From a virus, in the IMG/VR virus record IMGVR_UViG_3300030737_000014, positions 1-64,000 of that record: a DNA stretch of 64,000 nt; one strand, given 5' to 3'. The notes under the pieces are model-generated. The model did not search any database. It saw nothing but the letters and a program-made list of their open reading frames with translations, and had not been told where the DNA came from. This document shows positions 7,572-38,094 of this stretch, in pieces (within the stretch, counting starts at the first letter, position 1; each line of letters begins with the position of its first letter). A program made the translations under genes and the position numbers.

Positions 7572-8329
7572 CACGGCTTCACCGTCGTCTTCTGAGCCAC
7601 CCCAACCAACTCGGTCAGCTTGACCCGATCGAACTCGGCCCAAATGCTCGCCAGCCAGTGACGAACCTGGCCGCGTAACACGAAGGAAAAATTCGCCAGT
7701 TCGTCCTTTGCGTTCTTGTTGGCGACGAACTTCAGGAACGGGATCGACTCGACCTCGACCTTTTCGAACGCCATCTCGTCGAGTTTCGGGATGGTGAGTT
7801 CGACGGAATCCTTGATCTTGTTGAAGTAGGAAGCGAACGTCGCCTCATCCCATTCGAAAAAGGTGGTGTTGTTGACGTGGTTCTTGACCAAGAAATACTT
7901 GGCACCTTCCATGAAGGAAGCCGTGAGCGCGATCTCATCCAACGAAGCAATCGAGCTTCCCAGGATATGAAACACGGCCAAAGTGATCTGGCCAGACTTG
8001 GCCATATCCAAAAAGCCGATGTCCCTCAACGACGCCAGCGACGGAGAGAGCAAGCCGGCTCGCACGTCGATGAGCGTTACCGAGGGGTTCTCGGCACTCA
8101 GGGTATCGAACACCCGCATCTGACCCGGCGTCGTAGTGAGATCCACTATCTCGGTGATGTCGGAGTGAAAGCGTTTGAGCGTGCCGCGGGGGGATTCGGT
8201 ATCGAACGCCCTCGTCGGGGCGTCGTTGGCTCTGAAGTAGTCTAGCAGGGCACGAGAGGTCGTGGTTTTACCCACGCCTCCCTTGTCCGCACCGACGACG
8301 ATCACGACCGGTTTGGATAGTGTGATCAT
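7571..8329 (-). CDS. ParA/MinD-family ATPase
   Basis: 252 residues with the deviant Walker A ADKGGVGKTTTSRAL (signature Lys16 and Lys21), then FDTESPRGTLKRF and VTLIDVRAGLLSP as switch I/II-like segments. The family positions DNA or proteins by nucleoid-dependent ATP cycling. No ParB gene or centromere-like iteron array was found; the only candidate partner is the coupled winged-helix gene. Roles could be segregation of an episomal prophage or another DNA-localisation function. Confidence 0.75.
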   Translation of the reverse strand: MITLSKPVVIVVGADKGGVGKTTTSRALLDYFRANDAPTRAFDTESPRGTLKRFHSDITEIVDLTTTPGQMRVFDTLSAENPSVTLIDVRAGLLSPSLASLRDIGFLDMAKSGQITLAVFHILGSSIASLDEIALTASFMEGAKYFLVKNHVNNTTFFEWDEATFASYFNKIKDSVELTIPKLDEMAFEKVEVESIPFLKFVANKNAKDELANFSFVLRGQVRHWLASIWAEFDRVKLTELVGVAQKTTVKP

Positions 8330-14087: not shown

Positions 14088-14653
14088 TGCACGGGATCAT
14101 CTCACCTAACGAACAACTTCTCACAGTTGCAGCGAATTTCATTTTAGCGGGCGGTCAGCGCGCTCAATGGGTTGGCGCGTTTGATCGCGCCGTAGAAATG
14201 TCGGGGAAGGGCCAAGACATCGATGCCGACTGCGGCCAGGTTGAATCTGCCCAACCCCGACACACAAATGAAGGTGAGGAGGCCAAGTTTAAGGTGCCGC
14301 AAGGCCAATCGATAGGTGCCTCCTCACCTTCACACCGTCTTGTCACCTTCATCGCTCGCGAACCGACTGCACAGCAACGATCAATCGGCGCCGATAATGC
14401 GAAGAAGATCGCTCTCACCGTCATGGACACCATGAAAATCGACGGTCTGTCTATTGGCGACTGGACGATCACTAATGCCCTTCGTGCCGGCAAGAATATG
14501 ACTCACGAAGGTCTCGTGCTGCTCGGGGCAGCACGTAGGGCAAAGCTGAAATACGCCAACCTGCCAGGCAACACGCTACTTCGTCACGCTCTCAAACCGG
14601 CCGACATGCAGAATATTGTTCGTCGCGCCATGGAGAAGACCAATGTCTTCTGA
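14087..14653 (+). CDS. Hypothetical 188-aa protein
   Basis: Starts MHGIISPNEQLLTVAANFIL. The middle (45-90) is polar and low-complexity; the C-terminal half (VMDTMKIDGLSIGDWTITNA, then HEGLVLLGAARRAKL) resembles a helical DNA-binding segment but fits no family I can name. It overlaps the following gene by 11 nt. Confidence 0.6.
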   Translation: MHGIISPNEQLLTVAANFILAGGQRAQWVGAFDRAVEMSGKGQDIDADCGQVESAQPRHTNEGEEAKFKVPQGQSIGASSPSHRLVTFIAREPTAQQRSIGADNAKKIALTVMDTMKIDGLSIGDWTITNALRAGKNMTHEGLVLLGAARRAKLKYANLPGNTLLRHALKPADMQNIVRRAMEKTNVF

Positions 14654-15839
14654 GATCATCGACAGCATTCGTGACTGGCATCGCAAGCGTTGCTTCGCCA
14701 TGGAAAACCGCAAGCGTGCGGATCTCTCGCTCGGGTCAAGTCTCCGTTCGTGGCTCGGCTGGCGCAAGGATCTTCCGGACGAGGATCGTAAGCGGATAGC
14801 GACCCAGGCTGATCAGTTGATTGATTGCGGTGAGAAACTCGCCAAGGGCAAGCCGCACGATCTGTCCGACACCGAAGAATTCCAGAACTACGGTCCTATC
14901 ATCCTGGTCGCCATCAACGCGCGCAAACTGACGGATGATTTCGAGAAGATTGCGCATAAGGAAATGGAGCGTTTGGCCAAACTGCTTCCGGTCTGGTCTT
15001 CCTTTGGTGAATCCATCCGTGGGTTCGGCGCCGTGTCCCTGGCTGTCATCGTCGGTGAAGCTGGCGATCTCAACCACTACTCGTCGCATTCCAAGTTGTG
15101 GAAGCGTATGGGCCTCGCTGTGATGGACGGCGTGCGCCAGGGCGGCTTGAAGAAGACGTCAGGCAAGGATCTCTGGATCGAACACGGCTACAGCCCGATC
15201 CGTCGATCTCGGATGTGGAATATCGGCGATACGCTGATGAAGGGAAACCAGACGGGTCCGTATCGCACGGCCTATCTGGCTCGGAAAGACTACGAGCGCG
15301 AACGCGCCGTTGCCAACGGTCTGACCGTGGCGCCGGCCGCGAAGATCCCCGCGAAGACTCGAGAGCTATTTATCTCGGACGGACAGATTCATCTTCGTTC
15401 GCAGAGATACATGGAAAAACGTTTGCTGAAGCATCTTTGGCAAGCGTGGAGACGGGCCGTCCCCGGCATGCCTGAACTGGCTATGTATCCGCTGCCCGTC
15501 TCCCATCGTTACATCGATACGCCTACGGGCGCGGTGTCGGCCCTTCGCGGCTTGCCGAAAGGCCGTATTAGACGTGCCGACACCAAAAATTCAGATGCGG
15601 CGAAAGTCGCGGAGGTGGCCATTCACATTGTGCCGAAAGGCCGGACTGGTTCTGCCACCTCCAAAAACACGAATGCGGCGAAAGTCGCGGAGGTGGCCAC
15701 GTCTCGACTGCCGAAAGGCCAAATGACGGATGCCACCTCCAAAAACACGAACGGGCGCAAGCCCAGGGGAGGCCAAAGCATCCATGCTCACAAGGCCGTT
15801 GGCCAGTTGCTTCCCCACCCATTGGAGACTGTCTCATGA
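14643..15839 (+). CDS. IS110/IS116 transposase-domain (helix-hairpin-helix) protein with C-terminal tandem repeat
   Basis: 398 residues from ATG 14643 (GGAG seven bases upstream). Residues about 115-165 (LPVWSSFGESIRGFGAVSLA, VIVGEAGDLNHYSSHSKLWK, RMGLAV) match the C-terminal Transposase_20 domain of IS110/IS116-type recombinases. The N-terminal RuvC-like DEDD domain of true IS110 transposases is not seen, and no IS ends flank the gene, so it is a domesticated relative rather than an active element. Residues 304-381 are 2.5 copies of a 26-residue basic repeat (LPKGR..ATSKNTNAAKVAE). It overlaps the ProQ-like gene by ATGA. Confidence 0.65.
   Translation: MSSEIIDSIRDWHRKRCFAMENRKRADLSLGSSLRSWLGWRKDLPDEDRKRIATQADQLIDCGEKLAKGKPHDLSDTEEFQNYGPIILVAINARKLTDDFEKIAHKEMERLAKLLPVWSSFGESIRGFGAVSLAVIVGEAGDLNHYSSHSKLWKRMGLAVMDGVRQGGLKKTSGKDLWIEHGYSPIRRSRMWNIGDTLMKGNQTGPYRTAYLARKDYERERAVANGLTVAPAAKIPAKTRELFISDGQIHLRSQRYMEKRLLKHLWQAWRRAVPGMPELAMYPLPVSHRYIDTPTGAVSALRGLPKGRIRRADTKNSDAAKVAEVAIHIVPKGRTGSATSKNTNAAKVAEVATSRLPKGQMTDATSKNTNGRKPRGGQSIHAHKAVGQLLPHPLETVS
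15552..15757 (+). repeat. 78-bp tandem repeat (about 2.6 copies) inside a coding gene
   Basis: TGCCGAAAGG begins at 15553, 15631 and 15709, an exact 78-bp period (26 codons). Long identical blocks such as GCGGCGAAAGTCGCGGAGGT and CCACCTCCAAAAACACGAA are shared between neighbouring copies. It encodes a Lys/Ala-rich tail that may bind nucleic acid. Confidence 0.9.
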
Positions 15840-25345: not shown

Positions 25346-25530
25346 CCCGCCCAGCAACATTCACCCAGGCCCAGGTCCGGAAGGCTATCAAGGGGGCCGA
25401 GAGCGCCGGGCTGCGCGTCGGATCCATCACAGTCAAGCCGGACGGTTCTATAGTTATTGAGAATGGGGATGTTGATAGTCGTCCGACAAAGCGGCACAGT
25501 AAAGCCTTGGCGGGGTGGGAGGATGTCTGA
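25342..25530 (+). CDS. Small protein upstream of integrase
   Basis: 62 residues: MTRPATFTQAQVRKAIKGAE, then GLRVGSITVKPDGSIVIENG. A helix plus a beta hairpin. It overlaps the integrase start (TGATG). Small proteins in this position may act as excisionase, but it lacks a clear winged-helix signature, so the role is a guess. Confidence 0.6.
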   Translation: MTRPATFTQAQVRKAIKGAESAGLRVGSITVKPDGSIVIENGDVDSRPTKRHSKALAGWEDV

Positions 25531-26570
25531 TGGCCCAGATCAAGTTGAAATACATCAACGAGTATCGCGACCGGCACGGAAATCTCCATCGCTACTTCCG
25601 GCGCAAGGGCGGCAAAAACCTGCCACTGTCTGGGAAGCCCGGCTCCACTGAGTTCATGGAGCAGTACAATGCATATCTATCCGATCAGCCGGCTCCGATA
25701 AAGCAACAGGTCAACGGATCGTTCGCCAAACTGGTGGACGATTTCTATGCCTCGCCCTGGTTCACCAAGAACATCAAGGCGTCGTCCCAGCGCACCTACC
25801 GAACGGTTCTCAACAAGTTGTCCTCGGACCACGGACACCGCGGTGTCGACATGATGACGCCGGAAGCCGTCCAGAGAATCATCGAGAAAATAGCCGGAGA
25901 GCATCCAGCTATGGCGAACCTGACGAAGGCGGTGCTGCGTCGGCTGATGACGTTCGCCGTCAAGCATCGGGTGGTCGCTTCAAACCCGGCGTCGAGGATG
26001 GAATCGTTTGAGATGGGGGAGCATCATTGCTGGACCGAGAAGGAGCTTGCCCAGTTCGAGCAGAAATGGCCGCTGGGGACACGTCAGCGCCTAGCCTACG
26101 AAGCCCTGCTCTGCACCGTCCAACGCATCGGTGACGTCGCCGCCATGAGCAGGACCGACATTACAGACGGTACGATCCGCGTCGTCCAGGAGAAGACCGG
26201 GACCGAGCTCCATATCCCGATCCTGCCGCAGCTCGAGGCCGCCATGAAGGCGTACCCGGCCAGGGGTCTGGCCATCGTCGGCGCCGAGCGTACCGGATCC
26301 CCGATGACGGTCGGATCCCTGTCTCTGGTCATGAGCGAGGCGATCGAGGCGGCCGGCCTACCAGACCGCTGTGTGTCCCATGGGTTGAGGAAAGCTTCGA
26401 TGCGGCGGATGGCCGAGTTGGGATTTTCAACGCACCAGATCGCGTCCTGGTCGGGCCACAAGACCCTGCGCGAGATCGAGCACTATACCAAGGCCGCCGA
26501 GCAGAAGAAGATGGCCTTGGGCGGGGTGGCCGGTAGGTCGAAAAAGAGAACAGAAGTTCCTAACCTTTGA
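25530..26570 (+). CDS. int: Tyrosine integrase
   Basis: 346 residues. Catalytic set: Arg199 (CTVQRIGDV), Lys222 (QEKTGTELHI), His284 and Arg287 (SHGLRKAS), His310 (WSGHKTLREIEHY) and Tyr319. The N-terminal basic part (RDRHGNLHRYFRRKGGK) and a SAM-like core-binding domain (about 63-160) precede it. The start at 25530 is set by TGATG overlap with a ribosome site GGGAGGATG upstream. It integrates and, with a helper, excises the phage. The stop codon lies inside the hairpin and repeat described next. Confidence 0.93.
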   Translation: MAQIKLKYINEYRDRHGNLHRYFRRKGGKNLPLSGKPGSTEFMEQYNAYLSDQPAPIKQQVNGSFAKLVDDFYASPWFTKNIKASSQRTYRTVLNKLSSDHGHRGVDMMTPEAVQRIIEKIAGEHPAMANLTKAVLRRLMTFAVKHRVVASNPASRMESFEMGEHHCWTEKELAQFEQKWPLGTRQRLAYEALLCTVQRIGDVAAMSRTDITDGTIRVVQEKTGTELHIPILPQLEAAMKAYPARGLAIVGAERTGSPMTVGSLSLVMSEAIEAAGLPDRCVSHGLRKASMRRMAELGFSTHQIASWSGHKTLREIEHYTKAAEQKKMALGGVAGRSKKRTEVPNL

Positions 26571-27854: not shown

Positions 27855-28135
27855 GCTGCCATCGCTTCCATCTCGATCGTGCCAGTGCCGGCCTGACCAC
27901 CAGGGATCATGTTCGGATCCGTGGCCGAGTTCAGGATCCGGATGCCGTTCGACCAGAGCCCCTGAAGGTCTGACAAGCTTTCGCCGTCGGGGTGCGCCTT
28001 GAACAGATGGATGGCCTTGGTGATCTGGTCAGCCGCAGCAAGCATCCGACCCTTCACCTTGGTGTCCCGCTCGATCATCGCAGCGTTGCGAAGCTGTAGC
28101 GTCAGGCTCTTGCCCGTATCGTAATCCATCTTCAT
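27851..28135 (-). CDS. Hypothetical 94-aa protein
   Basis: Start at 28135 (MKMDYDTGKSLTLQLRNAAM) by ATGA overlap with the HNH gene. Helical body (KGRMLAAADQITKAIHLFKA). Function unknown. Confidence 0.55.
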   Translation of the reverse strand: MKMDYDTGKSLTLQLRNAAMIERDTKVKGRMLAAADQITKAIHLFKAHPDGESLSDLQGLWSNGIRILNSATDPNMIPGGQAGTGTIEMEAMAA

Positions 28136-28548
28136 GCTCTTAGCTCCCTGTGGTGGCGCCATCTGTCTAGGTTGTTCTGTGATCGTGTGCCCCAATAGAG
28201 GTGATTGGGATTGACACACGCCTCGTGACCATTGCCGCAACTGTGACAACCCTCATGCGACAGCGAGGGCTTTTTTCCTTTGACGCACTGAAGGATGAAG
28301 ACGTGAACATCCATCGGTTCGCTATCGATGTTGATGCGTCCGTAACCGTGTGCCTTCCCGTATGGGAACGTTAGGCATTCGTTGCCGTCATAAGGTATCG
28401 CCACTTCATCGACCCAGCGACGAGCCTCGCCCTTGTCGATACCACCGGCAGAGGCGTCACCGTGCCTCCACCATCTCTTGTAGTGTGGATTGCAGTATCC
28501 TCGCGCGTAATGCTTGCGCTCGCATCCATCTATGGCGCAGATTTTCAT
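28132..28548 (-). CDS. HNH endonuclease
   Basis: 138 residues. N-terminal zinc-like module (CAIDGCERKHYARGYCNPHY) and the HNH core: VHVFILQCVKGKKPSLSHEG, CHSCGNGHEACVNPNHLYWG, TRSQNN. The arrangement fits phage HNH_3 homing-type nucleases. It overlaps both neighbours, so it is now an operon member. It could assist DNA packaging or be a homing nuclease. Confidence 0.82.
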   Translation of the reverse strand: MKICAIDGCERKHYARGYCNPHYKRWWRHGDASAGGIDKGEARRWVDEVAIPYDGNECLTFPYGKAHGYGRINIDSEPMDVHVFILQCVKGKKPSLSHEGCHSCGNGHEACVNPNHLYWGTRSQNNLDRWRHHRELRA

Positions 28549-29783
28549 TGATCCGACCCCATAATCATCTCAGGCGTCATGGTGTTGCGGAACACTTCAC
28601 CGAAGTGCCTCGAATAGGTGATGACCTTCGCTGAGCGACCGGTTGGCCATCCGCCGTTGGACTCGTGCGCATCCGGTGCCGCCAGCGTCTCGTGCTGCTC
28701 GACCTTCATCAGGTTCTTGGTCAGTAACGCATCCGAGTGACGATGACCGAGATGGGCATACGAGAACTTCGTTCGCCCGTAGATTTCACGGAACCGGCTG
28801 GCGAACACGTCATCGACTTGTCCTGGTCCGCGCTTGTGTCCGTGATGATAGAACAACGATGTCAAGCCGAACTCGTAGGCGTAGTAGGAGCTGGGCGAGC
28901 GATCGACCGTGAGCCGCGGCTCGTTGTCAAAGAACGCGGCAAACATTTCTCTGAGCCATGCCTCGCCCGACGGATCGTGATTGGCGTCAGCCATGATCCA
29001 GTGGACGCGCTCATACTTGTCGAGCATCATCTTGCCCATCCGGCGCAAGACCCGAATGATGACGCGGATCATCTTCTGGAGTCGGCTGTCGGAGTCGAGG
29101 ACGTGCGCGTGCGTCGGGGTGACGCTGATCTGTGCGTCGTAATGCAGGAGGTCACCTAGTTGGGCCAGGATGCCCGTCGAGGCGTCCGGAGACAGTCTGA
29201 TGGCCATTGAGAACCAGTCGAGATACATCTGCTCGGCGATCTTCAGATCATAGTCCGATCCCGTCTCCTCGCCCCACGACAGCTTGCCGAAGTGCGCGTC
29301 GGTCATGGTGTACTGGTTTGCAAGATCCTCACGACGATGCATCTCGATTAGAGGAGAAGGTTCCATCCTTGGAATCTCTTCCTTGAGCGCATCGACAACG
29401 GCCCGCATCGCCAGATGTCTGGCCTTCGCCTCTGGGGTCTCGATCGTCCACTGCAGCTTGATGTTATTGTCGCCGTCGGCAAGCGTGGACCGTCGGGCAA
29501 TATCGAAGCCCGGCATCAGCTCGAGCTGGGGCCCGACCTCAGGCACCTGACGGACGGAAGTTCGAACAACGTCGCCGTTCTTGTCGGTGGTCGTGTTGGT
29601 GGACGCGATCTGGAATCCAGGAAGGACATAGTCCGTTCCCATCAAACCGGCGAGTGCTGCCTTCTTGAGTTGGTACTGAATGCCGCCACGGGAAAGGCCG
29701 AGGTGTGCTGCCGCCATGGTCTGGTCTTCGTCACAGGCATAGTAGGCATCGACGGCCCGTTGAAGTGTCTCGATCGCAATCAT
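28545..29783 (-). CDS. Calcineurin-like metallophosphoesterase with N-terminal helix-turn-helix
   Basis: 412 residues. N-terminal AAAHLGLSRGGIQYQLKKAA looks like a DNA-binding helix-turn-helix. The metal-site motifs follow: TMTDAHFGKLSW (D-x-H), ILAQLGDLLHYDA (GD), IMADANHDPSGE (NHD), FYHHGHKRG and YAHLGHRHSD (H...GHxH). The family includes phosphodiesterases and Mre11-like nucleases; the substrate here is unknown. Related proteins are frequent in phage late regions near HNH genes. Confidence 0.8.
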   Translation of the reverse strand: MIAIETLQRAVDAYYACDEDQTMAAAHLGLSRGGIQYQLKKAALAGLMGTDYVLPGFQIASTNTTTDKNGDVVRTSVRQVPEVGPQLELMPGFDIARRSTLADGDNNIKLQWTIETPEAKARHLAMRAVVDALKEEIPRMEPSPLIEMHRREDLANQYTMTDAHFGKLSWGEETGSDYDLKIAEQMYLDWFSMAIRLSPDASTGILAQLGDLLHYDAQISVTPTHAHVLDSDSRLQKMIRVIIRVLRRMGKMMLDKYERVHWIMADANHDPSGEAWLREMFAAFFDNEPRLTVDRSPSSYYAYEFGLTSLFYHHGHKRGPGQVDDVFASRFREIYGRTKFSYAHLGHRHSDALLTKNLMKVEQHETLAAPDAHESNGGWPTGRSAKVITYSRHFGEVFRNTMTPEMIMGSDQ

Positions 29784-29956: not shown

Positions 29957-30162
29957 ACCGGCACCTCTTCGATCACCAGCCGACGAGAGCTGTGAACGTA
30001 GGTGTCTGGCAGATGCTGGCCCTGGACGAGAATAGTGCGGCTGGCTTCTTTCCATTCGTCTGTCATCTTCTTGGCGACGGGGTCCCAGGCGAGATCCTCA
30101 ACGATTACGACGATGGGCCAGTGCGAATTCTCTTGGCATTGAACGTGAACTTTGGTGGTCAT
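29953..30162 (-). CDS. Hypothetical 69-aa protein
   Basis: Start at 30162 (MTTKVHVQCQENSHWPIVVI) by ATGA overlap. DEWKEASRTILVQGQHLPDT follows. Beta-rich small protein, function unknown. Confidence 0.55.
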   Translation of the reverse strand: MTTKVHVQCQENSHWPIVVIVEDLAWDPVAKKMTDEWKEASRTILVQGQHLPDTYVHSSRRLVIEEVPV

Positions 30163-30236
30163 GATTTGGGTCCTGTGGAGATGTAGAAAATGAAGAAGAG
30201 GAACATGAGGAAGATGACGTCGTTGGAATCCATCAT
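30159..30236 (-). CDS. 25-aa membrane peptide
   Basis: MMDSNDVIFLMFLFFIFYIS plus TGPKS: a single hydrophobic helix. ATGA overlaps at both ends. Confidence 0.5.
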   Translation of the reverse strand: MMDSNDVIFLMFLFFIFYISTGPKS

Positions 30237-30490
30237 GCTGCAGCACCTTTGCCGGCCGTGTAGAGACGGACCGGAACTTGCCAACCGATCACAGACAGCA
30301 TTACGAACCCTCCGTTGTTCAGGATGTACAAGTCCTGCGCTGTCGGCTTCCATGCGCTGACGCATTCATTGTTGCCGTAAGAATCTTTGCGGTAGATGAT
30401 CGGTAACGTGCCGCACGAACCATTCTCTTCGGTCCATCCAAGCGGCGCGCCAGGATTGTGGGTCGCGCCTTTAATAGTTGCTACGTCCAT
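30233..30490 (-). CDS. Hypothetical 85-aa protein
   Basis: MDVATIKGATHNPGAPLGWT then SCGTLPIIYRKDSYGNNECV, NNGGFVMLSVIGWQVPV. Start ATG 30490 shares TGATG with the upstream stop; a GTG one codon earlier is also possible. Two Cys. Function unknown. Confidence 0.55.
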   Translation of the reverse strand: MDVATIKGATHNPGAPLGWTEENGSCGTLPIIYRKDSYGNNECVSAWKPTAQDLYILNNGGFVMLSVIGWQVPVRLYTAGKGAAA

Positions 30491-30738
30491 CACTTCACCC
30501 CATGCTTCTTGAAGCAGGCTTCCGCTTGCTTGATCATGTCTTCGGTTGCACCCTGGGAACGTGCCCAGGCCTTGATGTCGTCGGTGGTCATGCCCTGCTG
30601 ACGAGCTGTCGCAACCGCTGCACGAATGTCCGCGCAGTAGTCTGAGACTTCGGCGGCGTGAGCGAAGAGCGTAGCCATCATGAGGATGACGAAGGCGAAG
30701 AAGGCGCCGACGAGAGCGACGTGGAAGTGCTTGATCAT
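30490..30738 (-). CDS. Exported or membrane-anchored small protein
   Basis: 82 residues. N-terminal hydrophobic segment [20 protein letters not shown] ending in AHA/AE, a likely signal peptide, then a charged helical domain with two Cys (SDYCADIRAAVATARQQGMT, QAEACFKKHGVK). Start at 30738 by ATGA overlap. Could be an outer lysis or spanin-like protein; not established. Confidence 0.55.
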   Translation of the reverse strand: MIKHFHVALVGAFFAFVILMMATLFAHAAEVSDYCADIRAAVATARQQGMTTDDIKAWARSQGATEDMIKQAEACFKKHGVK

Positions 30739-30824
30739 GGCGTCAACACGGCCCCAAGGAAGATGATGATCGGGCCGATGATGATGAAGCCGATGACGAA
30801 GCCGGCGATGAGGTACTTCATCAT
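30735..30824 (-). CDS. 29-aa membrane peptide
   Basis: [20 protein letters not shown] plus IFLGAVLTP; very hydrophobic. ATGA overlaps at both ends, between the RlpA-like gene and the exported protein. Confidence 0.5.
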
Positions 30825-31177
30825 CGGACCTCCACCGGCGCCGTGCCGCCCATTCCGATCGCGTTGGCTGCAGCGCGCGACAGATCGATGCAACGTCCAC
30901 GATGGAACGGACCGCGGTCGTTGATGCGGACGACGACGCTCTTGCCGTTGTTCAGGTTGGTGACCGTTAGGTGGGCACCGAATGGATGATGCTTGTGGGC
31001 GGCGGTCAGCGCCCTCGGGTTCATGATCTCGCCGGAGGCTGTGCGCTTGCCGCCATAGCCATCGCCGGTCCCGTACTGGGATGCCTCACATCGCTCGGTA
31101 GCGAAGACCGGCTCGGACGCGGCAGAGCACGACGCCAAGGCAATAAAGCCCAGCGCCGCAATGAGATTGCGGGACAT
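30821..31177 (-). CDS. RlpA-like lipoprotein (double-psi beta-barrel)
   Basis: 118 residues from ATG 31177 (AGGTG upstream). Lipobox LASC at the end of [17 protein letters not shown]. The RlpA core follows: [70 protein letters not shown]; the catalytic-site Asp (NDRGPF) is present. RlpA cleaves naked glycan strands. It may assist lysis or remodel septal wall. It has its own promoter and a leader terminator. Confidence 0.85.
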
Positions 31178-31218
31178 TGGTTCACCTGTTTGTTTATGGA
31201 AGGGTTGGAATCTGGACA

Positions 31219-31242
31219 AAGAAAAACCCGCCAGCGGGTTCA
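31219..31242 (-). terminator. Leader terminator between the RlpA promoter and gene
   Basis: On the minus strand AACCCGC-TG-GCGGGTT followed by TTTCTTT (practically 5 pairs, loop CTGG). An upstream CCCGCC (about 31252-31257) can pair with GGCGGG instead, a possible alternative fold. It would stop transcripts from the promoter at 31276-31304 before the RlpA start, unless read through. Confidence 0.6.
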
Positions 31243-31275
31243 TCCGGTGGCGGGGCGTGGTAATCGACTGTGTCG

Positions 31276-31304
31276 TTAGTAGGGTAGTTGACCCTTCGTG
31301 TCAA
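31276..31304 (-). promoter_or_regulatory. Leftward promoter of the RlpA/lysis operon
   Basis: Minus strand TTGACA (31304-31299), 17-bp spacer, TACTAA (31281-31276): strong -35, fair -10. The TAGG repeat array abuts the -35 element. Confidence 0.75.
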
Positions 31305-31327
31305 GTAGGTAGGTAGGTAGGTAGGTA
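31305..31327. promoter_or_regulatory. TAGG repeat operator, third site
   Basis: GTAGGTAGGTAGGTAGGTAG plus GTA: five TAGG units, the longest run in the window, sharing sequence with the operators at 12.4 and 13.65 kb. It lies just upstream of the promoter on the minus strand. Confidence 0.75.
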
Positions 31328-31341
31328 TCAAATCGGTCCTA

Positions 31342-31449
31342 TTATCTCATCAGGACCGCAAAGGCATGATCGCATGCCATGAAGGTGATCGGGGCGACCG
31401 TGAGGAACACAGTCGTCCAGATCGCCAGGATACTGAGACCTTTTCTCAT
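31342..31449 (-). CDS. 35-aa membrane peptide
   Basis: Starts MRKGLSILAIWTTVFLTVAP; one hydrophobic helix with a basic head. ATGA overlap with the upstream gene fixes the start at 31449. Confidence 0.5.
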   Translation of the reverse strand: MRKGLSILAIWTTVFLTVAPITFMACDHAFAVLMR

Positions 31450-31643
31450 TTGACCACTCCCGTTAGGAGGAACGACTTGATGGCGGCAGCCGCGGCAGCC
31501 AATGCGCCGGCAACCATCACGGCCTTCACTGCTGCCCCAAGCAACCAATGTCCTCGGTCGTATTCCGACAGCATCCGCCTGATCCTACGACGCTCCAACT
31601 GATCGAGGTCTTCGTCACTGAACTCTTCAAGGTTCGTCGTCAT
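31446..31643 (-). CDS. Small membrane protein with charged head
   Basis: 65 residues. Acidic/basic N-terminus (MTTNLEEFSDEDLDQLERRR) and one C-terminal helix (LLGAAVKAVMVAGALAAAAA). Possibly part of the holin set; uncertain. Confidence 0.55.
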   Translation of the reverse strand: MTTNLEEFSDEDLDQLERRRIRRMLSEYDRGHWLLGAAVKAVMVAGALAAAAAAIKSFLLTGVVK

Positions 31644-31657
31644 ATGTATTTTCCCAT

Positions 31658-31690
31658 AAAAAAATGGCCGCGCCGGTTAAGGCGCGACCA
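31658..31690 (-). terminator. Late terminator
   Basis: Minus strand TGGTCGCGCC-ttaacc-GGCGCGGCCA (10 pairs, one G-U) then a run of seven T. Follows the Ala-rich gene at 31708. Confidence 0.85.
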
Positions 31691-31707
31691 GTTTGAAGTG
31701 ACGTTTC

Positions 31708-32121
31708 TTATGCGGCAGCAGCAACCGGAGCGGCGGTCGGAGCCGAAGCAGCCGCAGCCGCGGCACTGGCCGCAGCAGACTGAGCAGTCTTGACGGCGAC
31801 GTAGCCCGACACGACCGAAGCCGCGGTGGACTTGCCGGCGTTCGAAGCGGCAGCGAAGGCGTTCAGCGCAGTCACCGCCGTGTTCGCAGCCGTGATGGCG
31901 ATAGCCACGTCCGGATTGGACGCAACGCCGACGGCCTCGACGATGCCCAGGACCGCCTGGAGATCGGCAACGATCGTGGGAGTCTCAGAGGCGACCCACT
32001 TGGCGACGGCATTGATGTCGGCCTCCAGGACGGCGATGCCGGCCTTGAACTTGACGACGATCGCCTGGACATCGGCTTCAGTGGTCGTCCAAACGTTTTC
32101 GAGAGTGGTCAGCAAAGTCAT
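31708..32121 (-). CDS. Ala-rich helical protein in the lysis block
   Basis: 137 residues: TTTEADVQAIVVKFKAGIAV, VEAVGVASNPDVAIAITAAN, and an Ala/Ser/Pro-rich tail (AAASAPTAAPVAAAA). Mostly helix and hydrophobic in the last half but no sharp membrane span. No family recognised. Confidence 0.55.
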   Translation of the reverse strand: MTLLTTLENVWTTTEADVQAIVVKFKAGIAVLEADINAVAKWVASETPTIVADLQAVLGIVEAVGVASNPDVAIAITAANTAVTALNAFAAASNAGKSTAASVVSGYVAVKTAQSAAASAAAAAASAPTAAPVAAAA

Positions 32122-32135
32122 GGTTCTTCTTTCTT

Positions 32136-32387
32136 TCAGAGTGAAGCTAGGAGTTCGGTGATGTTCTTGAGTTGGGCCGGATCTTCGACCAGCGTGTTCG
32201 CCACGTTTAGAACACGAGTCGCCGACTGGATGACCGTCTTCAGGTCGATCGTGTGATAATCCAGCTTGCCGGTCTTGGAGGATGCATACAGGTGATAGAG
32301 CGTCTCCACGTCGCTCAGAAGCTGGGCCGGATTCTCCGAGTGAACGGCAGCTCCGGCCAGGCTAAAGCCTGCCAGGATGTCGATCAT
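32136..32387 (-). CDS. Hypothetical 83-aa helical protein
   Basis: Starts MIDILAGFSLAGAAVHSENP, then TLYHLYASSKTGKLDYHTID. Overlaps the holin candidate by ATGA. Helical; function unknown. Confidence 0.55.
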   Translation of the reverse strand: MIDILAGFSLAGAAVHSENPAQLLSDVETLYHLYASSKTGKLDYHTIDLKTVIQSATRVLNVANTLVEDPAQLKNITELLASL

Positions 32388-32575
32388 GAAGTTTTCTTCA
32401 CACCGGCAAGCAGACCGGCCACCAGCGTGCCGACATTGCCGATGACCACGAGGACGGCCTGGGAGGTCGTCGGGTCATCGAAGAAATGGGCCAGCGCCGG
32501 CTTACCGAACACGCCAGACAGAACAGCCGCGATCGAGAGAACGGCAGTCACCGTTCCGGGGGTAACGTATTTCAT
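32384..32575 (-). CDS. Holin candidate
   Basis: 63 residues with two hydrophobic segments (TAVLSIAAVLSGVFG and AVLVVIGNVGTLVAGLLAG), short charged ends (KKTS) and a small loop. Size, topology and location next to the endolysin and RlpA-like genes suit a class II holin. No sequence family matched by eye. Confidence 0.5.
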   Translation of the reverse strand: MKYVTPGTVTAVLSIAAVLSGVFGKPALAHFFDDPTTSQAVLVVIGNVGTLVAGLLAGVKKTS

Positions 32576-32593
32576 TGTAGATCTCCTGTGGGG

Positions 32594-33124
32594 TTATCGA
32601 AAATTGATTTTGGATTCGGTGTTGAAGACACGATCCCACAGCGAAGTCGTCACGCCGAAGTTGACGTCGCGCCTGTGATGCAACATGTGTCGAAGCTTGA
32701 GCGGGTAGAGGAAATGCCCAGGCTCGATCTTTGCGTAGTGGAATGCCGTGTGAGCGATGGAGTAGATGACGTAGCCGACCGAGAACCCGACCGACATGGC
32801 GCCGGATGCGAACCCGAACAGCAGCCAGAAGAATCCGTAGATCGACAACACCACCAATGGATGCAGAGCGATGTGGTCGTTCTGCTTGTCGTGATGCAGT
32901 GCGTGGGCCTCCCTGAACAAAGGAACGTTGTGCGCGATCACCCGATGCGAGAAGTATTCGTAAAAGGTCCAGAGCAGAATTCCGATCGCGAAGAACGCCG
33001 GCCACAGGATGGTGGCGTGCATCAACGAGATGACCAGCAGTGCTAGCGTGATCGGCGGAGTGATGAAGAAGTCGGCGTAATACTCTCGTGGTGTACGCCG
33101 GAAGAGATCGAGCCAAGCTTCCAT
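32594..33124 (-). CDS. Fatty acid hydroxylase/sterol desaturase superfamily membrane enzyme
   Basis: 176 residues, four hydrophobic stretches. Histidine clusters of the di-iron family: HRVIAH (60-65, HX4H), HALHHD (74-78, HX2HH), HTAFH (125-129) and HMLHH (146-150, HX2HH) then NFG (155-157). They face the cytoplasm in a usual hydroxylase. Possible substrates are host membrane lipids such as fatty acids, hopanoids or ornithine lipids. It overlaps the endolysin by 1 nt and lies in the lysis block. A metabolic gene on a phage; function by family only. Confidence 0.78.
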   Translation of the reverse strand: MEAWLDLFRRTPREYYADFFITPPITLALLVISLMHATILWPAFFAIGILLWTFYEYFSHRVIAHNVPLFREAHALHHDKQNDHIALHPLVVLSIYGFFWLLFGFASGAMSVGFSVGYVIYSIAHTAFHYAKIEPGHFLYPLKLRHMLHHRRDVNFGVTTSLWDRVFNTESKINFR

Positions 33125-33630
33125 CAGTGCAGCCTCGCCGCTTGCACATGCATCGCGTCGATCGACCCAGACGACCAGTCGCCGCCCCAGATCCAGCCCT
33201 CTGCTTTGAACTTGGTCACCAACATGGATGCGTCGGTGAACAGATGCTTCATCGCATGCTGCTCATTCTCTTCAGCGTCCCAGTCAATCGCGGCGCCGAA
33301 GCCGTGCATCGATCGGTTCGACATCCCTCGCATTGAGCGCTGGTTGTAGGAGCCAGAGTAGTGGTCGTAATGCAGCGCGGTGATCTCGGCCTGACTCTTG
33401 CCGACCGCATCCCAGACCTGTCCCAGGACAGCGGACAGGCTGTCGGCGCACTTCTTGTGGATCCGGATCGCGGCCACGGGCTGCTTGAGCTTGCCGTCGA
33501 TAAAGAACAGTGGCCAGGGACACGGCACATTGACCAGGTTCGCTTTCTCCCAGGCTGCCCATTGCGCCGGGCTATCCCCAGGGTTGCCATAGAATGCATT
33601 GCAGTCCCTCTGGAGTGGCCAGATAGGCAT
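33124..33630 (-). CDS. Endolysin, peptidase M15 (D-Ala-D-Ala carboxypeptidase/L-Ala-D-Glu endopeptidase-like)
   Basis: 168 residues from ATG 33630 (AAAAGGAAACATC before it). Zinc-site motifs: SMHGFGAAIDWD (His109, Asp116) and WGGDWSSGSIDAMHVQ (His161; Asp158 as probable base). No signal peptide. Cuts peptidoglycan cross-links or stem peptides at lysis. The longer frame upstream covers a 19-bp repeat array and is untranslated. Confidence 0.87.
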   Translation of the reverse strand: MPIWPLQRDCNAFYGNPGDSPAQWAAWEKANLVNVPCPWPLFFIDGKLKQPVAAIRIHKKCADSLSAVLGQVWDAVGKSQAEITALHYDHYSGSYNQRSMRGMSNRSMHGFGAAIDWDAEENEQHAMKHLFTDASMLVTKFKAEGWIWGGDWSSGSIDAMHVQAARLH

Positions 33631-33647
33631 GATGTTTCCTTTTGATG

Positions 33648-33701
33648 TAAGAGCACTGATAACTTGTAAGAACACTGATAAGTTGTAAGTGCTCTGATAT
33701 G
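33648..33701. repeat. Three 19-bp direct repeats before the endolysin start
   Basis: TAAGAGCACTGATAACTTG (33648), TAAGAACACTGATAAGTTG (33667), TAAGTGCTCTGATATG (33686): two full copies and one partial. The outer copies also carry AGAGCACT and AGTGCTCT as inverted halves. They end about 20 bases ahead of the ATG on the minus strand. A regulatory or protein-binding array is likely. Confidence 0.65.
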
Positions 33702-33807
33702 TTTCGGATAAGTCGACGGGCCGCATCGCCAGGGTCATCCGACCGAAGCCAGCGCCCTACAGGGAGACCTCGTAGGAGGATCTCCCCGGCGAGCGGCACC
33801 GTCATTC

Positions 33808-34086
33808 CTATGAGAAGAGCCCCAGTCTGTCGCGCAACCGGCCGAACAAGGTCGGAGGCTTGACAGGCTTGACAGGATCTGGCGCCGGCTTGATAGGGCC
33901 GAACTCGCCAGAGATGGCGCGGCAGTAAAGCTCGCGGCTATGATCTTCCGCGTCGCTTATCGATGCTGTGAACGGGATGGGACCGAGATGCTGAAGCTCC
34001 TTGAACACGACCGTCATGTTCACGCAGGAGTAATCCTTGTGCAGGGGGTAGTAGAGATCCTGCACAAGGAGGACTGTTCGCTTCAT
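33808..34086 (-). CDS. Hypothetical 92-aa protein after the fibre gene
   Basis: Starts MKRTVLLVQDLYYPLHKDYS; Cys/Asn head and a Pro/Lys tail (KPAPDPVKPVKPPTLFGR). TAATG overlap with the fibre gene. By position it could be a fibre chaperone, but it lacks a known signature. Confidence 0.5.
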   Translation of the reverse strand: MKRTVLLVQDLYYPLHKDYSCVNMTVVFKELQHLGPIPFTASISDAEDHSRELYCRAISGEFGPIKPAPDPVKPVKPPTLFGRLRDRLGLFS

Positions 34087-35729
34087 TAGGCGATCCGCTG
34101 CATGAGAAGAACGTTGCCGGCTCCGGGGTTTACCGCCGCGAATGCCGTGGAATTGATCGCCGCTCCCGACGCAACGACGTTCGACATGATCTGCCAGGTG
34201 CCGGGCCATACGTTGGCACCGCTGATGCTCAAGGCGTTACTGGCCGGGCCGTGGTATCCGGAAGTTCCTCCGCCAGTGACCAAGAATATCGAGGGAGGAA
34301 AGGAGTCGGCGACTGCGATCGCGTAGGAGCCGATTGCTCCTGGCGTGTTGGAAGGAGAACCTGCCGGACCTTGAATACCCTGCGGTCCCGGTACACCTTG
34401 CACGCCCTGTGGGCCTTGCGGTCCAGTGGCACCGCCCCCGCCGCCCCCGCCGCCGAGGCTCGCGATGATCTGATATTCCGTGCCGTCATAGACCAGAAGC
34501 AGGATCTCGCCGGCCACGAAACCGTTCGTCGAACTCAGAGCGCTAAGGTTTCCGAGCGTGACGTTCTTAGCACCGAGACCATTGACGTTGATCGTGGTAG
34601 CGGCGCTGATGTTATTCGCCAGCTTCACCGAGATGAAGAGACCGGCTACTTGCTGACCACTGGTGATCGCTGGCGAGTAGACTGCCGTGATCGCATTGGC
34701 GACGCCCGAGGTATCCGCAATGTACGGAATGCTCAACGTAGAGAAGTTGTTCGTCGTCGAGCCGGCGCTGATGCCGACGTAGTTCACCATCTGGAAGTTG
34801 GCGCCGTCGTAGACGACCTCGAGCACCTGGCCGGAGACGATGTCGCCAGAGTTCAGCGCAGCTCCGCCAGCTCGCTTCAGACCAACGGTGCCGAGACCAT
34901 TGACGTTGATGGTTGACCCAGAGCTGCCCGAGTTGGCATTGACCGCCTTGAACTTGACCGCCATGCCGGCCTGATAGGCCACGAGCGGCTGAATGAACGG
35001 AGGAACCGTGACGACGTAGGCATTGGCAGCACCCGTGTCGGTGCCCCAAACCCAGTCACCCTTTTGCACATGGCTCGGCACCGACGGCAGCGTCGGGAAG
35101 AACGGCGCCGTGGAGACCTGAACGATTCCACCTGACGTGATCTGGGTCTGACCGTTTACGACGGTGATCGTGTAGAGCGGCGTGAACCCAGGGTCCGCCG
35201 ACGGCGTGATCTGCGTTCCGGACGACGCGGGCGTGCCGGCCTTGAGTGCGATGACGCACTGGCAAGATCGAACAGTGAAGTTTGAAGTGCCAGCATTTGC
35301 CGGGCCAGAGAACGGTGCGGAAGGATTGGCCGAGTTGTAATAACTCAGGACCAATGACCCCGTGTCGATATCGTCAAGGATCGCCTCGACCAGGTAGACC
35401 TGGCTGAATCCTGACGTCGTCGGCGGCGTGATCGTCAACGACACCGGGCTCTGCAACAGGCCCTGCTTCATGATGTTGTTGGCGTCGGTTCCGAGATCTC
35501 CGTACGCAACCTGATCTGTCGGATCCATCTCGAAGATGGACCCGACGTTCACGATCACCTGAAGCGATGCCGTGGGCGACGTTGGGATGCAACCGAGTCC
35601 GGCGACGAGCGTGCCGCTACCGAGTACGGCAAGGTTATGATATGCCTCCCCGACCATGTTGAACTTGTTGGTCGACAGGACGTCTGTGTCTTGCGGTAGC
35701 GCGCCGGGATAGACGATAACTCGATCCAT
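34086..35729 (-). CDS. Tail fibre with collagen-like stretch and duplicated beta domain
   Basis: 547 residues. N-terminal beta region; then two related ~85-residue blocks, each with TINVNGLG and EVVYDGANFQM / LLVYDGTEYQII; then a Gly-rich and collagen-like GXY run (GPQGPQGVQGVPGPQGIQG, about 440-465); the C-terminal ~85 residues may bind receptor. Preceded by a terminator and followed by the 92-aa gene. Role: host adhesion. Confidence 0.8.
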   Translation of the reverse strand: MDRVIVYPGALPQDTDVLSTNKFNMVGEAYHNLAVLGSGTLVAGLGCIPTSPTASLQVIVNVGSIFEMDPTDQVAYGDLGTDANNIMKQGLLQSPVSLTITPPTTSGFSQVYLVEAILDDIDTGSLVLSYYNSANPSAPFSGPANAGTSNFTVRSCQCVIALKAGTPASSGTQITPSADPGFTPLYTITVVNGQTQITSGGIVQVSTAPFFPTLPSVPSHVQKGDWVWGTDTGAANAYVVTVPPFIQPLVAYQAGMAVKFKAVNANSGSSGSTINVNGLGTVGLKRAGGAALNSGDIVSGQVLEVVYDGANFQMVNYVGISAGSTTNNFSTLSIPYIADTSGVANAITAVYSPAITSGQQVAGLFISVKLANNISAATTINVNGLGAKNVTLGNLSALSSTNGFVAGEILLLVYDGTEYQIIASLGGGGGGGGATGPQGPQGVQGVPGPQGIQGPAGSPSNTPGAIGSYAIAVADSFPPSIFLVTGGGTSGYHGPASNALSISGANVWPGTWQIMSNVVASGAAINSTAFAAVNPGAGNVLLMQRIA

Positions 35730-35750
35730 CGTTGAACCTTTTTTTTGGCA

Positions 35751-35785
35751 AAGAAAAACCCCGCATCGACGAGCGTCGGCGGGGT
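35751..35785 (-). terminator. Late terminator between the baseplate and fibre genes
   Basis: Minus strand ACCCCGCCGACG-ct-CGTCGATGCGGGGT (one bulge), then TTTTCTTT. A further T-rich run (35739-35746) lies behind it. Confidence 0.8.
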
Positions 35786-35810
35786 GAAGAAGACTGGGAG
35801 TGTTGAGTTC

Positions 35811-36500
35811 TTAGTTGATTGCGACCCAAGCAGTTACGCCGGTCGGCTTCGTCTTATTGATCATGTCGTAGATCACTGGATCGGTGACGCCCGTCAGCGT
35901 GGTGTAGGATCCCGCATATTCGATCGTGCCGACGCCGTATCCGGCAGCGTCACCGTCATAGCCATCAACGTTAGGAACACCGCTACTCGTTCGACGGGTG
36001 ACTTGTATGAAGACCTGACCCGGTAGCCCCATGTTGCCATAGCCGCCACGTCCGACGCCGTATCCCATCGAACCGTAGTTCGGGCTGTTGGCGACCTGGG
36101 CCGGCCCGCTATACGCCCCGGTGTCGTAGGTGTTCCATGGTTCGAATACCGCTGGCGCCGTACCCGTCAGCGTGGTGACGGCATTGATCATGCCTGCGCG
36201 CGTCACACGCTCTTGAAGAATGGTCGCACGGATAACAGCCCTGAATGCAGAGTCGGGTGCAGCGCCACGCTTGATGAAGTTGCCGAGATAGTCGTACGCA
36301 AAGATGTCTAGCCAGATGCCGTAGGCGGTGGATAGACGACCCTGCGCTCGAGTGTAACCGATGAGGTTGTAGATCCATGATCCACCATCAGAGATACCGC
36401 CCATGATGGCGTCTCTGAATGTCGCGGCGAACATGAACCATCCGCGTGGGATTAGTTTGCGGACGCGAGATAGGATATCCCCAGAGCTTCCGGTCGTCAT
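35811..36500 (-). CDS. Baseplate/tail-end protein (gpI-like position)
   Basis: 229 residues. DILSRVRKLIPRGWFMFAAT, WLDIFAYDYLGNFIKRGAAP and a Gly/Tyr-rich middle (YGSMGYGVGRGGYGNMGLPG). Directly downstream of the baseplate J gene, ATGA-coupled, where P2 and Mu-like phages encode the gpI/gp48-type connector to the fibre. Family assignment is by position. Confidence 0.6.
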   Translation of the reverse strand: MTTGSSGDILSRVRKLIPRGWFMFAATFRDAIMGGISDGGSWIYNLIGYTRAQGRLSTAYGIWLDIFAYDYLGNFIKRGAAPDSAFRAVIRATILQERVTRAGMINAVTTLTGTAPAVFEPWNTYDTGAYSGPAQVANSPNYGSMGYGVGRGGYGNMGLPGQVFIQVTRRTSSGVPNVDGYDGDAAGYGVGTIEYAGSYTTLTGVTDPVIYDMINKTKPTGVTAWVAIN

Positions 36501-37711
36501 GAGATGGTCATCACTCCGGCCTTGATGGTGAATGCCTTGATCTGTGCGTTACCGTCCGTCGTCAATCTGAAGGCGTTGATCGACGCTGGATCGCCAGTTG
36601 CTCCGTTGAGGAAGACGGCAGCGACATCTGTCACACCTGGGATCGCATAGGCCCATGGTAAGAGCTGAGACCACGGCAGTGACACGCCGAGGCCAAGGCT
36701 GTTGATATTGGTGGCTACGGCAGCGGCGACCTGGGCGACGACGGTTGGATGATCATACCCTGTTGCCGTGGTGATCTGCATCGATACGTTTGCGGTAATG
36801 ATGGACGGAAGGAACACACCGCACATGATGCTAAGTGGGCGCACTGCCTGCGCGGCATTCGTAACCGTCAGCATGAAATCTGGCGACGGGTTGCCGGATC
36901 CATCGTCTGCGACAACGAAGAAATATCCGGGATGATACGAGCCGTCGTAGTTATATCCCTCGGTCAGCGTCCACTGGACGTTGACTTCGACACCGGTGAT
37001 CGAGGAATTCAAACCATAGTAATCTCCACGGGAGAGCCCGAGGATATAGGATGCGAAGCGTGACTTGAGAGCGGAGTCCTGCTCGAAGTTCGTACCATTC
37101 GTGAACGCGGCCACGTTGCTGACTGTATCAATACCAGTGATGGGCGAAGTCATCGTGGCAATGGCGCCAGAAGCAACGTTGCCGGCAGCTCCGGCGACGG
37201 CGGCCTGGACCGGCACGACAATGGACGCCACCGACGAAGGTAGCGTGTAGCCGGGTCCAACAGCCGTTACCGAGTAGGTCGCGAATGTGGTGTTCGCGAT
37301 CACAGCAAAATTTTGCGCGCCGTCACCGGTCTGGATCGTGGCGCCGACGGGGATGAAGCAAGAGGTCGGGCCGGCAGTGAATCGGGAGAAGGTCACCTGG
37401 CCGGTTGCGAACTCTGCTCCGAGTCTCGGACTTCCACCTGGTAAAACGGCCGTCTGACTGCCGGGGATGATCGGCATGAAATCAGCGGTGAAGGTATCGA
37501 CGTCGGTGCCGCTCGAGGTAGACAGGCGCGTAGCCTTCAAGACCTGCAACAGCATTGCCTGGAACCACAGGAAGAGTCCCGCGAACCCTTCCACGATTGC
37601 GCGCAGCGTCGAGCCTTGGGAGAAATTGATGAGCTTGCTGGCTCGTCCTTGAATGCCCGATATCGTGTTAGAGACGATCGTGTCGAAGCTTTGGGTAGGT
37701 AGCGTGGCCAT
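36497..37711 (-). CDS. Baseplate J-like protein
   Basis: 404 residues. Fits the Baseplate_J pattern: N-terminal helical part with QGSTLRAIVEGFAGLFLWFQ and TDVDTFTADFMPIIPGS, then beta domain (GQVTFSR, IPVGATIQTGDG, YTLPSSVASIVVPVQAAVAG), and FASYILGLSRGDYYGLNSSI. Forms the wedge of contractile-tail baseplates. Confidence 0.87.
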   Translation of the reverse strand: MATLPTQSFDTIVSNTISGIQGRASKLINFSQGSTLRAIVEGFAGLFLWFQAMLLQVLKATRLSTSSGTDVDTFTADFMPIIPGSQTAVLPGGSPRLGAEFATGQVTFSRFTAGPTSCFIPVGATIQTGDGAQNFAVIANTTFATYSVTAVGPGYTLPSSVASIVVPVQAAVAGAAGNVASGAIATMTSPITGIDTVSNVAAFTNGTNFEQDSALKSRFASYILGLSRGDYYGLNSSITGVEVNVQWTLTEGYNYDGSYHPGYFFVVADDGSGNPSPDFMLTVTNAAQAVRPLSIMCGVFLPSIITANVSMQITTATGYDHPTVVAQVAAAVATNINSLGLGVSLPWSQLLPWAYAIPGVTDVAAVFLNGATGDPASINAFRLTTDGNAQIKAFTIKAGVMTIS

Positions 37712-37725
37712 TTATTCCCCGCCCT

Positions 37726-38094
37726 TTAAGACGTGATAGTGAAACTGACGGAGACGCCTGTAGCGGCATCCCAGTATTGGATGCTGATGGTGACCAGGTC
37801 TGGCTGATTGGGTGATGCTGCGACGCTGATCTGAGCCGGCGGCGACGGAGCAACTGATGCTTCGAGCGCGAGCTGAGAAGAACAGACGGCCAGGATATCG
37901 GAGACCGACAAGACCGATCCGATCTTCTGCGGCAGGCCGGCGCCGTAATCCGGATGCCAGACGTAACCGTTCACCGCGGTGAACAGTCGGCGCTCGAGGC
38001 GTTGACGAACTTCGTCATCCCCATCGACAACCAATAGGTCTCCCGTGGCGTCGACTTCGAAGTCGGCACCCCATTCCAAAGAAACGTCAGCCAT
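37726..38094 (-). CDS. Baseplate gp25-like/gpW-type wedge protein
   Basis: 122 residues: DFEVDATGDLLVVDGDDEVR, QRLERRLFTAVNGYVWHPDY, GAGLPQKIGSVLS. The sequence and position directly before baseplate J match the lysozyme-fold gp25 wedge family of contractile tails. Confidence 0.75.
   Translation of the reverse strand: MADVSLEWGADFEVDATGDLLVVDGDDEVRQRLERRLFTAVNGYVWHPDYGAGLPQKIGSVLSVSDILAVCSSQLALEASVAPSPPAQISVAASPNQPDLVTISIQYWDAATGVSVSFTITS

Follow-up and report, generated by a model that had tools for sequence, protein, structure and literature searches.

A fatty-acid-hydroxylase-family gene behind the endolysin of a temperate phage: probable exchangeable cargo of the Scs7/FA2H type

Why a phage should carry a gene of the fatty acid hydroxylase family, and why that gene should lie directly behind an endolysin, is the question raised by one locus of the virus record IMGVR_UViG_3300030737_000014 (IMG/VR, 67,026 bases). 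The window analysed here is the stretch of 64,000 nucleotides at positions 1 to 64,000 of that record, and the gene in question is read on its minus strand from an ATG start to give a protein of 176 aa. On that strand a tail protein, an M15 endolysin, the hydroxylase, ORFs of 63, 83 and 137 aa and a hairpin follow one another in this order, as given below with window coordinates.

34086..35729, minus strand: tail protein (phrog_4900 tail protein, E 6.9e-12; homologues in related phages)
33124..33738, minus strand: endolysin, M15 peptidase (PF13539, E 2.8e-10; phrog_17001 endolysin, E 9.5e-24)
32594..33124, minus strand: predicted FA_hydroxylase (PF04116) of the Scs7/FA2H type with ten ligand-position histidines (Pfam, Scs7 alignment, fold, phage relatives)
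32384..32575, minus strand: holin candidate of 63 aa with two hydrophobic segments (hydropathy; 68% identical copy in G1104, a phage with the same backbone)
32136..32387, minus strand: 83-aa ORF with no assigned function (ORF list; weak PHROG match)
31708..32121, minus strand: 137-aa ORF with no assigned function (common to a Beijerinckia prophage, C199, and a viral contig, G005)
31665..31690, minus strand: terminator-like hairpin of 10 pairs with 7 T, 3' of the 137-aa ORF

The hydroxylase directly adjoins both the endolysin, whose TGA overlaps its ATG as TGATG, and the 63-aa ORF, which begins 18 nt past the hydroxylase, is preceded by AGGAG and overlaps the 83-aa ORF by 4 nt. The 63-aa ORF gave no convincing family match and is regarded as a holin candidate from its size, its two hydrophobic segments and its position. 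The placement between an endolysin and a holin candidate described in the initial annotation was recovered, with the M15 peptidase upstream and the two-segment ORF downstream, and with "holin" kept as a candidate assignment. The hairpin at 31665-31690 was the strongest in a scan that overall returned 6 hairpins against 5.4 in shuffles, and it is likely the operon end. The late gene order is indicated by the tail protein that precedes the lysis genes. A scan with the sigma-70 consensus only found no promoter-like site in 30000-38000. Since an integrase (25515-26570) and a repressor-like gene are present, the phage is classed from its gene content as temperate. A transposase-like protein (14616-15839; phrog_4285, E 1.7e-19) occurs besides the integrase. 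A second cell-wall enzyme, an RlpA-like DPBB lytic transglycosylase (30821-31243; PF03330, E 1.1e-21), lies near the lysis genes, and an ORF resembling an HNH endonuclease by eye (28132-28548) overlaps a phrog_704 "DNA repair exonuclease" gene (28545-29783).

The hydroxylase matched the Pfam FA_hydroxylase model (PF04116) over its whole length (1-132 of 132; E 6.6e-19, 69.1 bits), with a full domain and a score above the curated cut-off of 31 bits, and its genuine membership of this superfamily, claimed in the initial annotation, was confirmed at the sequence level. NCBIfam, PADLOC and PHROGs offered no relevant family. The sole relevant solved relative was yeast Scs7 (phmmer, E 1.3e-7), and a profile built on six relatives raised this match to E 7.7e-13. 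On alignment to 4zr0, with Scs7 residues numbered by counting along the printed chain, H60/H65 of the query fall on Scs7 H244/H249, H74/H77/H78 on H268/H271/H272, H125/H129 on H326/H330 and H146/H149/H150 on H345/H348/H349. These ten Scs7 histidines are taken here to be the metal ligands of the Scs7 structure. All four histidine clusters are kept, as had been claimed, and the ten ligand-position histidines do not vary among the phage relatives or in a spirochaete protein with 29% identity. The di-metal site of the family is formed by four histidine motifs (PMC10002949). His88, within IALHP or IAVHP, is an extra histidine that 6/6 phage proteins have and that the Hyphomicrobiales relatives in the alignment lack.

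An AlphaFold model of the hydroxylase built from six sequences was of moderate confidence (pLDDT 78, pTM 0.73). When this predicted structure was compared with the PDB by Foldseek, Scs7 alone was significant (E 1.5e-4, TM 0.70), and nothing was significant among viral structures, for which the top match was a putative holin (E 2.7). The protein begins at the hydroxylase domain, and neither a Cyt-b5 nor an Fer2 electron donor domain was found in it or elsewhere in the phage. On sequence and modelled structure, the ORF at 32594-33124 would encode a monooxygenase of the Scs7/FA2H type, integral to the membrane and with a di-metal centre ligated by histidines, as part of an overall explanation that is considered fairly probable. 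The "probably active" of the initial annotation keeps its "probably": it finds indirect support in ligands that are invariant across phages, in purifying selection in one pair of copies and in the predicted Scs7 fold.

Close relatives of the hydroxylase (50-57% identity) were found in three other viral contigs of IMG/VR, G003 (28.7 kb), G004 (101.8 kb) and G005 (119.7 kb), and in two prophages, C98 and C199, of one Beijerinckia genome, so that with the window six phage loci were compared. Two 100% identical contigs (L002, L003) were rejected as independent loci and left out, being the same phage with zero mismatch over 13-16.5 kb. The two phage-type copies of Beijerinckia sp. L45, recovered in a GTDB scan, are 87% identical to each other, and this was the only genome returned with phage-type copies among 385 genomes of the class. 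The six phage proteins formed one clade (support 98/92) apart from cellular relatives. The family tree that had been proposed for tracing the donor host thus resolved a phage clade of its own and contained no close cellular donor, the nearest cellular relatives recovered being about 30-40% identical. Between the two Beijerinckia prophage copies, dN was 0.099 and dS 0.716, and the resulting dN/dS of about 0.14 indicates purifying selection on the hydroxylase in this one pair. A chance ORF was rejected in view of the family match, the fold, the clade and purifying selection.

Cellular relatives are common in the order of Beijerinckia (41/297 genomes at E below 1e-12), where the sampled ones are flanked by ordinary chromosomal genes, and the matches on plasmids are cellular-type genes with 30-38% identity. 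Some carrier phages, at least, infect Hyphomicrobiales. For the phage of the window, the Beijerinckia prophages and the cellular relatives are what suggests a host in this order; its capsid had no match in the 297 genomes of the order or in phage records, and its portal matched distant Arthrobacter phages only (21-25%).

The hydroxylase lies in the lysis region in three of the six loci (window, G003 and C199), together with two unrelated endolysin types. In G003 its start and the stop of a GH19-like endolysin (phrog_181, E 2.5e-52) share ATGA, and small hydrophobic ORFs and a lipoprotein-like ORF follow; in C199 it stands behind a tail fibre gene, a GH19-like endolysin, a small hydrophobic ORF and, directly upstream of it, a homologue of the 137-aa gene. 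The remaining three loci have no adjoining recognisable endolysin: the hydroxylases of G004 and G005 are placed amid small genes of no assigned function, with a transglycosylase ~3.6 kb away in G004, and that of C98 is placed between integrase and terminase. The 137-aa family travels between phages, with members at window 31708-32121, L026:4325-4726 and L057:8289-8981. In G004, an ORF that is alpha/beta hydrolase-like by eye and has no Pfam match (L005:7158-7703), and then a small ORF (7707-7991), precede the hydroxylase, and this small ORF recurs in G005 (L006:6911-7132), ~0.9 kb upstream of the hydroxylase.

In an all-against-all comparison, the window and C98 had the hydroxylase as their sole common gene, and only an HNH gene accompanied it in the comparison with G003. 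The transglycosylase region was also common to the window and G004, the capsid and portal genes to the window and G005, and the tail-fibre and 137-aa genes to the window and C199. Because the hydroxylase is the near-sole common gene in several pairs and was not found in phage records or capsid relatives, these gene-content comparisons identify it as a rarely carried cargo gene that is passed between phages otherwise mostly unrelated to one another.

The statement in the initial annotation that phages rarely carry such genes agrees with the counts. No real relative of the hydroxylase was present in 50,697 phage records, in which a very loose cut-off returned unrelated RNA-ligase stretches only. 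PF04116 was found in 0/45 viral records with a related capsid, many of them fragments in which absence weighs little, and in 1/32 records with a related endolysin, many of which are likewise fragments. The single case, L101 (IMGVR_UViG_3300044809_000117, 1246-1785), is a distant PF04116 protein encoded two genes upstream of a GH19-like endolysin; the tree does not place it with certainty (AU test of membership in the phage clade, p 0.33), and it is possibly an independent acquisition. A scan for hydroxylases of this type returned L101 itself only. In the literature searched, no fatty-acid hydroxylase of a phage was described, and the closest cases came from algal and giant viruses.

Precisely where the hydroxylase stands in the window, a phage whose M15 endolysin is 56% identical carries an HNH endonuclease. 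At L097:4510-4917, the stop of a related M15 endolysin is overlapped by an HNH endonuclease gene that takes the place filled in the window by the hydroxylase. The same-backbone phage G1104 has tail genes 42-76% identical to those of the window, an unrelated amidase endolysin and, nearby, the 68% identical copy of the 63-aa ORF, and its record of 54.8 kb yielded no PF04116 match. Since an HNH gene occupies the same slot and G1104 is without the hydroxylase, the slot behind the endolysin appears to accept exchangeable cargo. The 63-aa ORF, by virtue of its copy in the G1104 lysis region, appears to be a conserved lysis-region gene. The hydroxylase is thus absent from backbone relatives (the capsid relatives and G1104), as is the case for phage morons.

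The explanation preferred here, and considered fairly probable as a whole, is that of an active late membrane hydroxylase that acts on acyl chains of host lipids and is encoded by an exchanged cargo gene. The hydroxylase would probably be expressed late and translated together with the endolysin, would insert into the host inner membrane and would use O2 and host electrons, on which the phage would depend because it has no Cyt-b5 or Fer2 domain. Acyl chains of a host envelope lipid would then be hydroxylated, at position 2 by analogy. PF04116 also includes enzymes for sterols, carotenoids and lipid head groups, and for this reason acyl hydroxylation is put forward as an analogy only. The slot behind the endolysin would be one landing place for the cargo gene. 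A rare, mobile and backbone-dispensable gene suits cargo that alters a cell, infected or lysogenic, no less well than a component of lysis; coupling to the endolysin in two unrelated phages may keep the lysis idea alive, and a lysis role is not required because three of the six loci have no adjoining recognisable endolysin.

A narrower version of this explanation, which differs in when the enzyme acts, is that the gene is a lysogenic-conversion or exclusion moron whose product modifies envelope lipids, with hopanoid, ornithine lipid or the acyl chains of lipid A as candidates, and thereby changes receptors or membrane properties in lysogens or infected cells, its position among lysis genes being a cargo hot spot only. 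The integrase and repressor-like genes of a temperate phage, the presence of the hydroxylase in two prophages of one Beijerinckia genome, its rare and patchy occurrence, the HNH cargo in the same slot and the three loci away from endolysins are all in keeping with it. However, the start fused to the endolysin stop and the lack of a promoter-like site in the region point to late rather than lysogenic expression, whereas morons (e.g. those of DLP4) are described as independently transcribed (PMC6469090). This version is possible, with a probability well below that of the preferred explanation.

Alternatively, the hydroxylase could be a working part of lysis, in which lipid hydroxylation at the late stage would make the membrane looser or stiffer and would assist, or set the timing of, the holin or spanin step. 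Overlaps with two unrelated endolysins, a place in the lysis region at three of the six loci and a holin candidate as the next gene would fit such a role, but the gene is missing from the 45 capsid relatives and, despite its copy of the 63-aa ORF, from G1104, and it is located elsewhere in G004, G005 and C98, so this alternative looks unlikely. That soil alphaproteobacterial phages recruited a lipid hydroxylase into lysis, with endolysin-coupled lipid oxidation just before lysis setting or helping membrane rupture, is quite unlikely; we know of no lipid-chemical step in phage lysis. A co-opted non-enzymatic membrane protein, holin- or spanin-like and with the fold merely kept, would suit a small membrane protein of the lysis region whose top viral fold match is a putative holin, albeit a non-significant one, but is very improbable given ten metal ligands invariant across phages with at most 57% identity, a fold match that is significant for Scs7 and not for the holin, and a separate holin candidate next to the hydroxylase.

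To our knowledge, phage genes that alter host lipids have rarely been found. A clade of phage hydroxylases that moves between unrelated genomes, and that in two cases is fused to unrelated endolysins, offers a testable case of phage lipid chemistry, which would serve either lysis or a change to the envelope of cells that are infected or lysogenic, and Beijerinckia sp. L45, with its two prophage copies, is a possible experimental entry.

Among known systems, Scs7/FA2H of yeast and human (PDB 4ZR0, 4ZR1) is a ceramide fatty acid 2-hydroxylase that 2-hydroxylates acyl chains of sphingolipids. The phage protein resembles it in the predicted fold of the hydroxylase domain, in the four histidine motifs with ten aligned ligands and in a C-terminal G-V-T-x-x-x-W-D-x-V-F motif. 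In contrast to Scs7/FA2H, to which it is about 26% identical, it has 176 aa, no cytochrome b5 domain and a shorter first loop linking histidine motifs one and two, and it is phage-borne. An N-terminal cytochrome b5 domain is present in FA2H of animals, fungi and protists and absent in plants (PMC10002949); plant members do not need one. Myxobacterial FA2H-like 2-hydroxylases, to the extent that they are described in PMC10002949, where they are cited, are functional bacterial enzymes of the FA2H type with histidine motifs; the likeness is one of description, and they are chromosomal whereas the present gene is phage-borne. The chromosomal proteins of Hyphomicrobiales annotated as sterol desaturase / fatty acid hydroxylase family share the N-terminal Y-x-x-D-F region and the ligands with the phage proteins and are alike in length, at about 190 aa, and they differ in an identity of only about 30-40% and in having IGTP where the phage proteins have IALHP. 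OlsE of rhizobia belongs to the same superfamily as the PF04116 hydroxylases. Hydroxylated ornithine lipids are known in rhizobia, where OlsE hydroxylates ornithine lipid (PMC3972451); this enzyme, likened to the phage protein by description, has a membrane lipid as its substrate and comes from the same bacterial order, and it is chromosomal and directed at the ornithine head group. Morons and lysogenic-conversion genes such as those described for DLP4 are likewise accessory in temperate phages and missing from backbone relatives, whereas the hydroxylase has no promoter-like site, has its start fused to the endolysin stop and recurs in unrelated phages.
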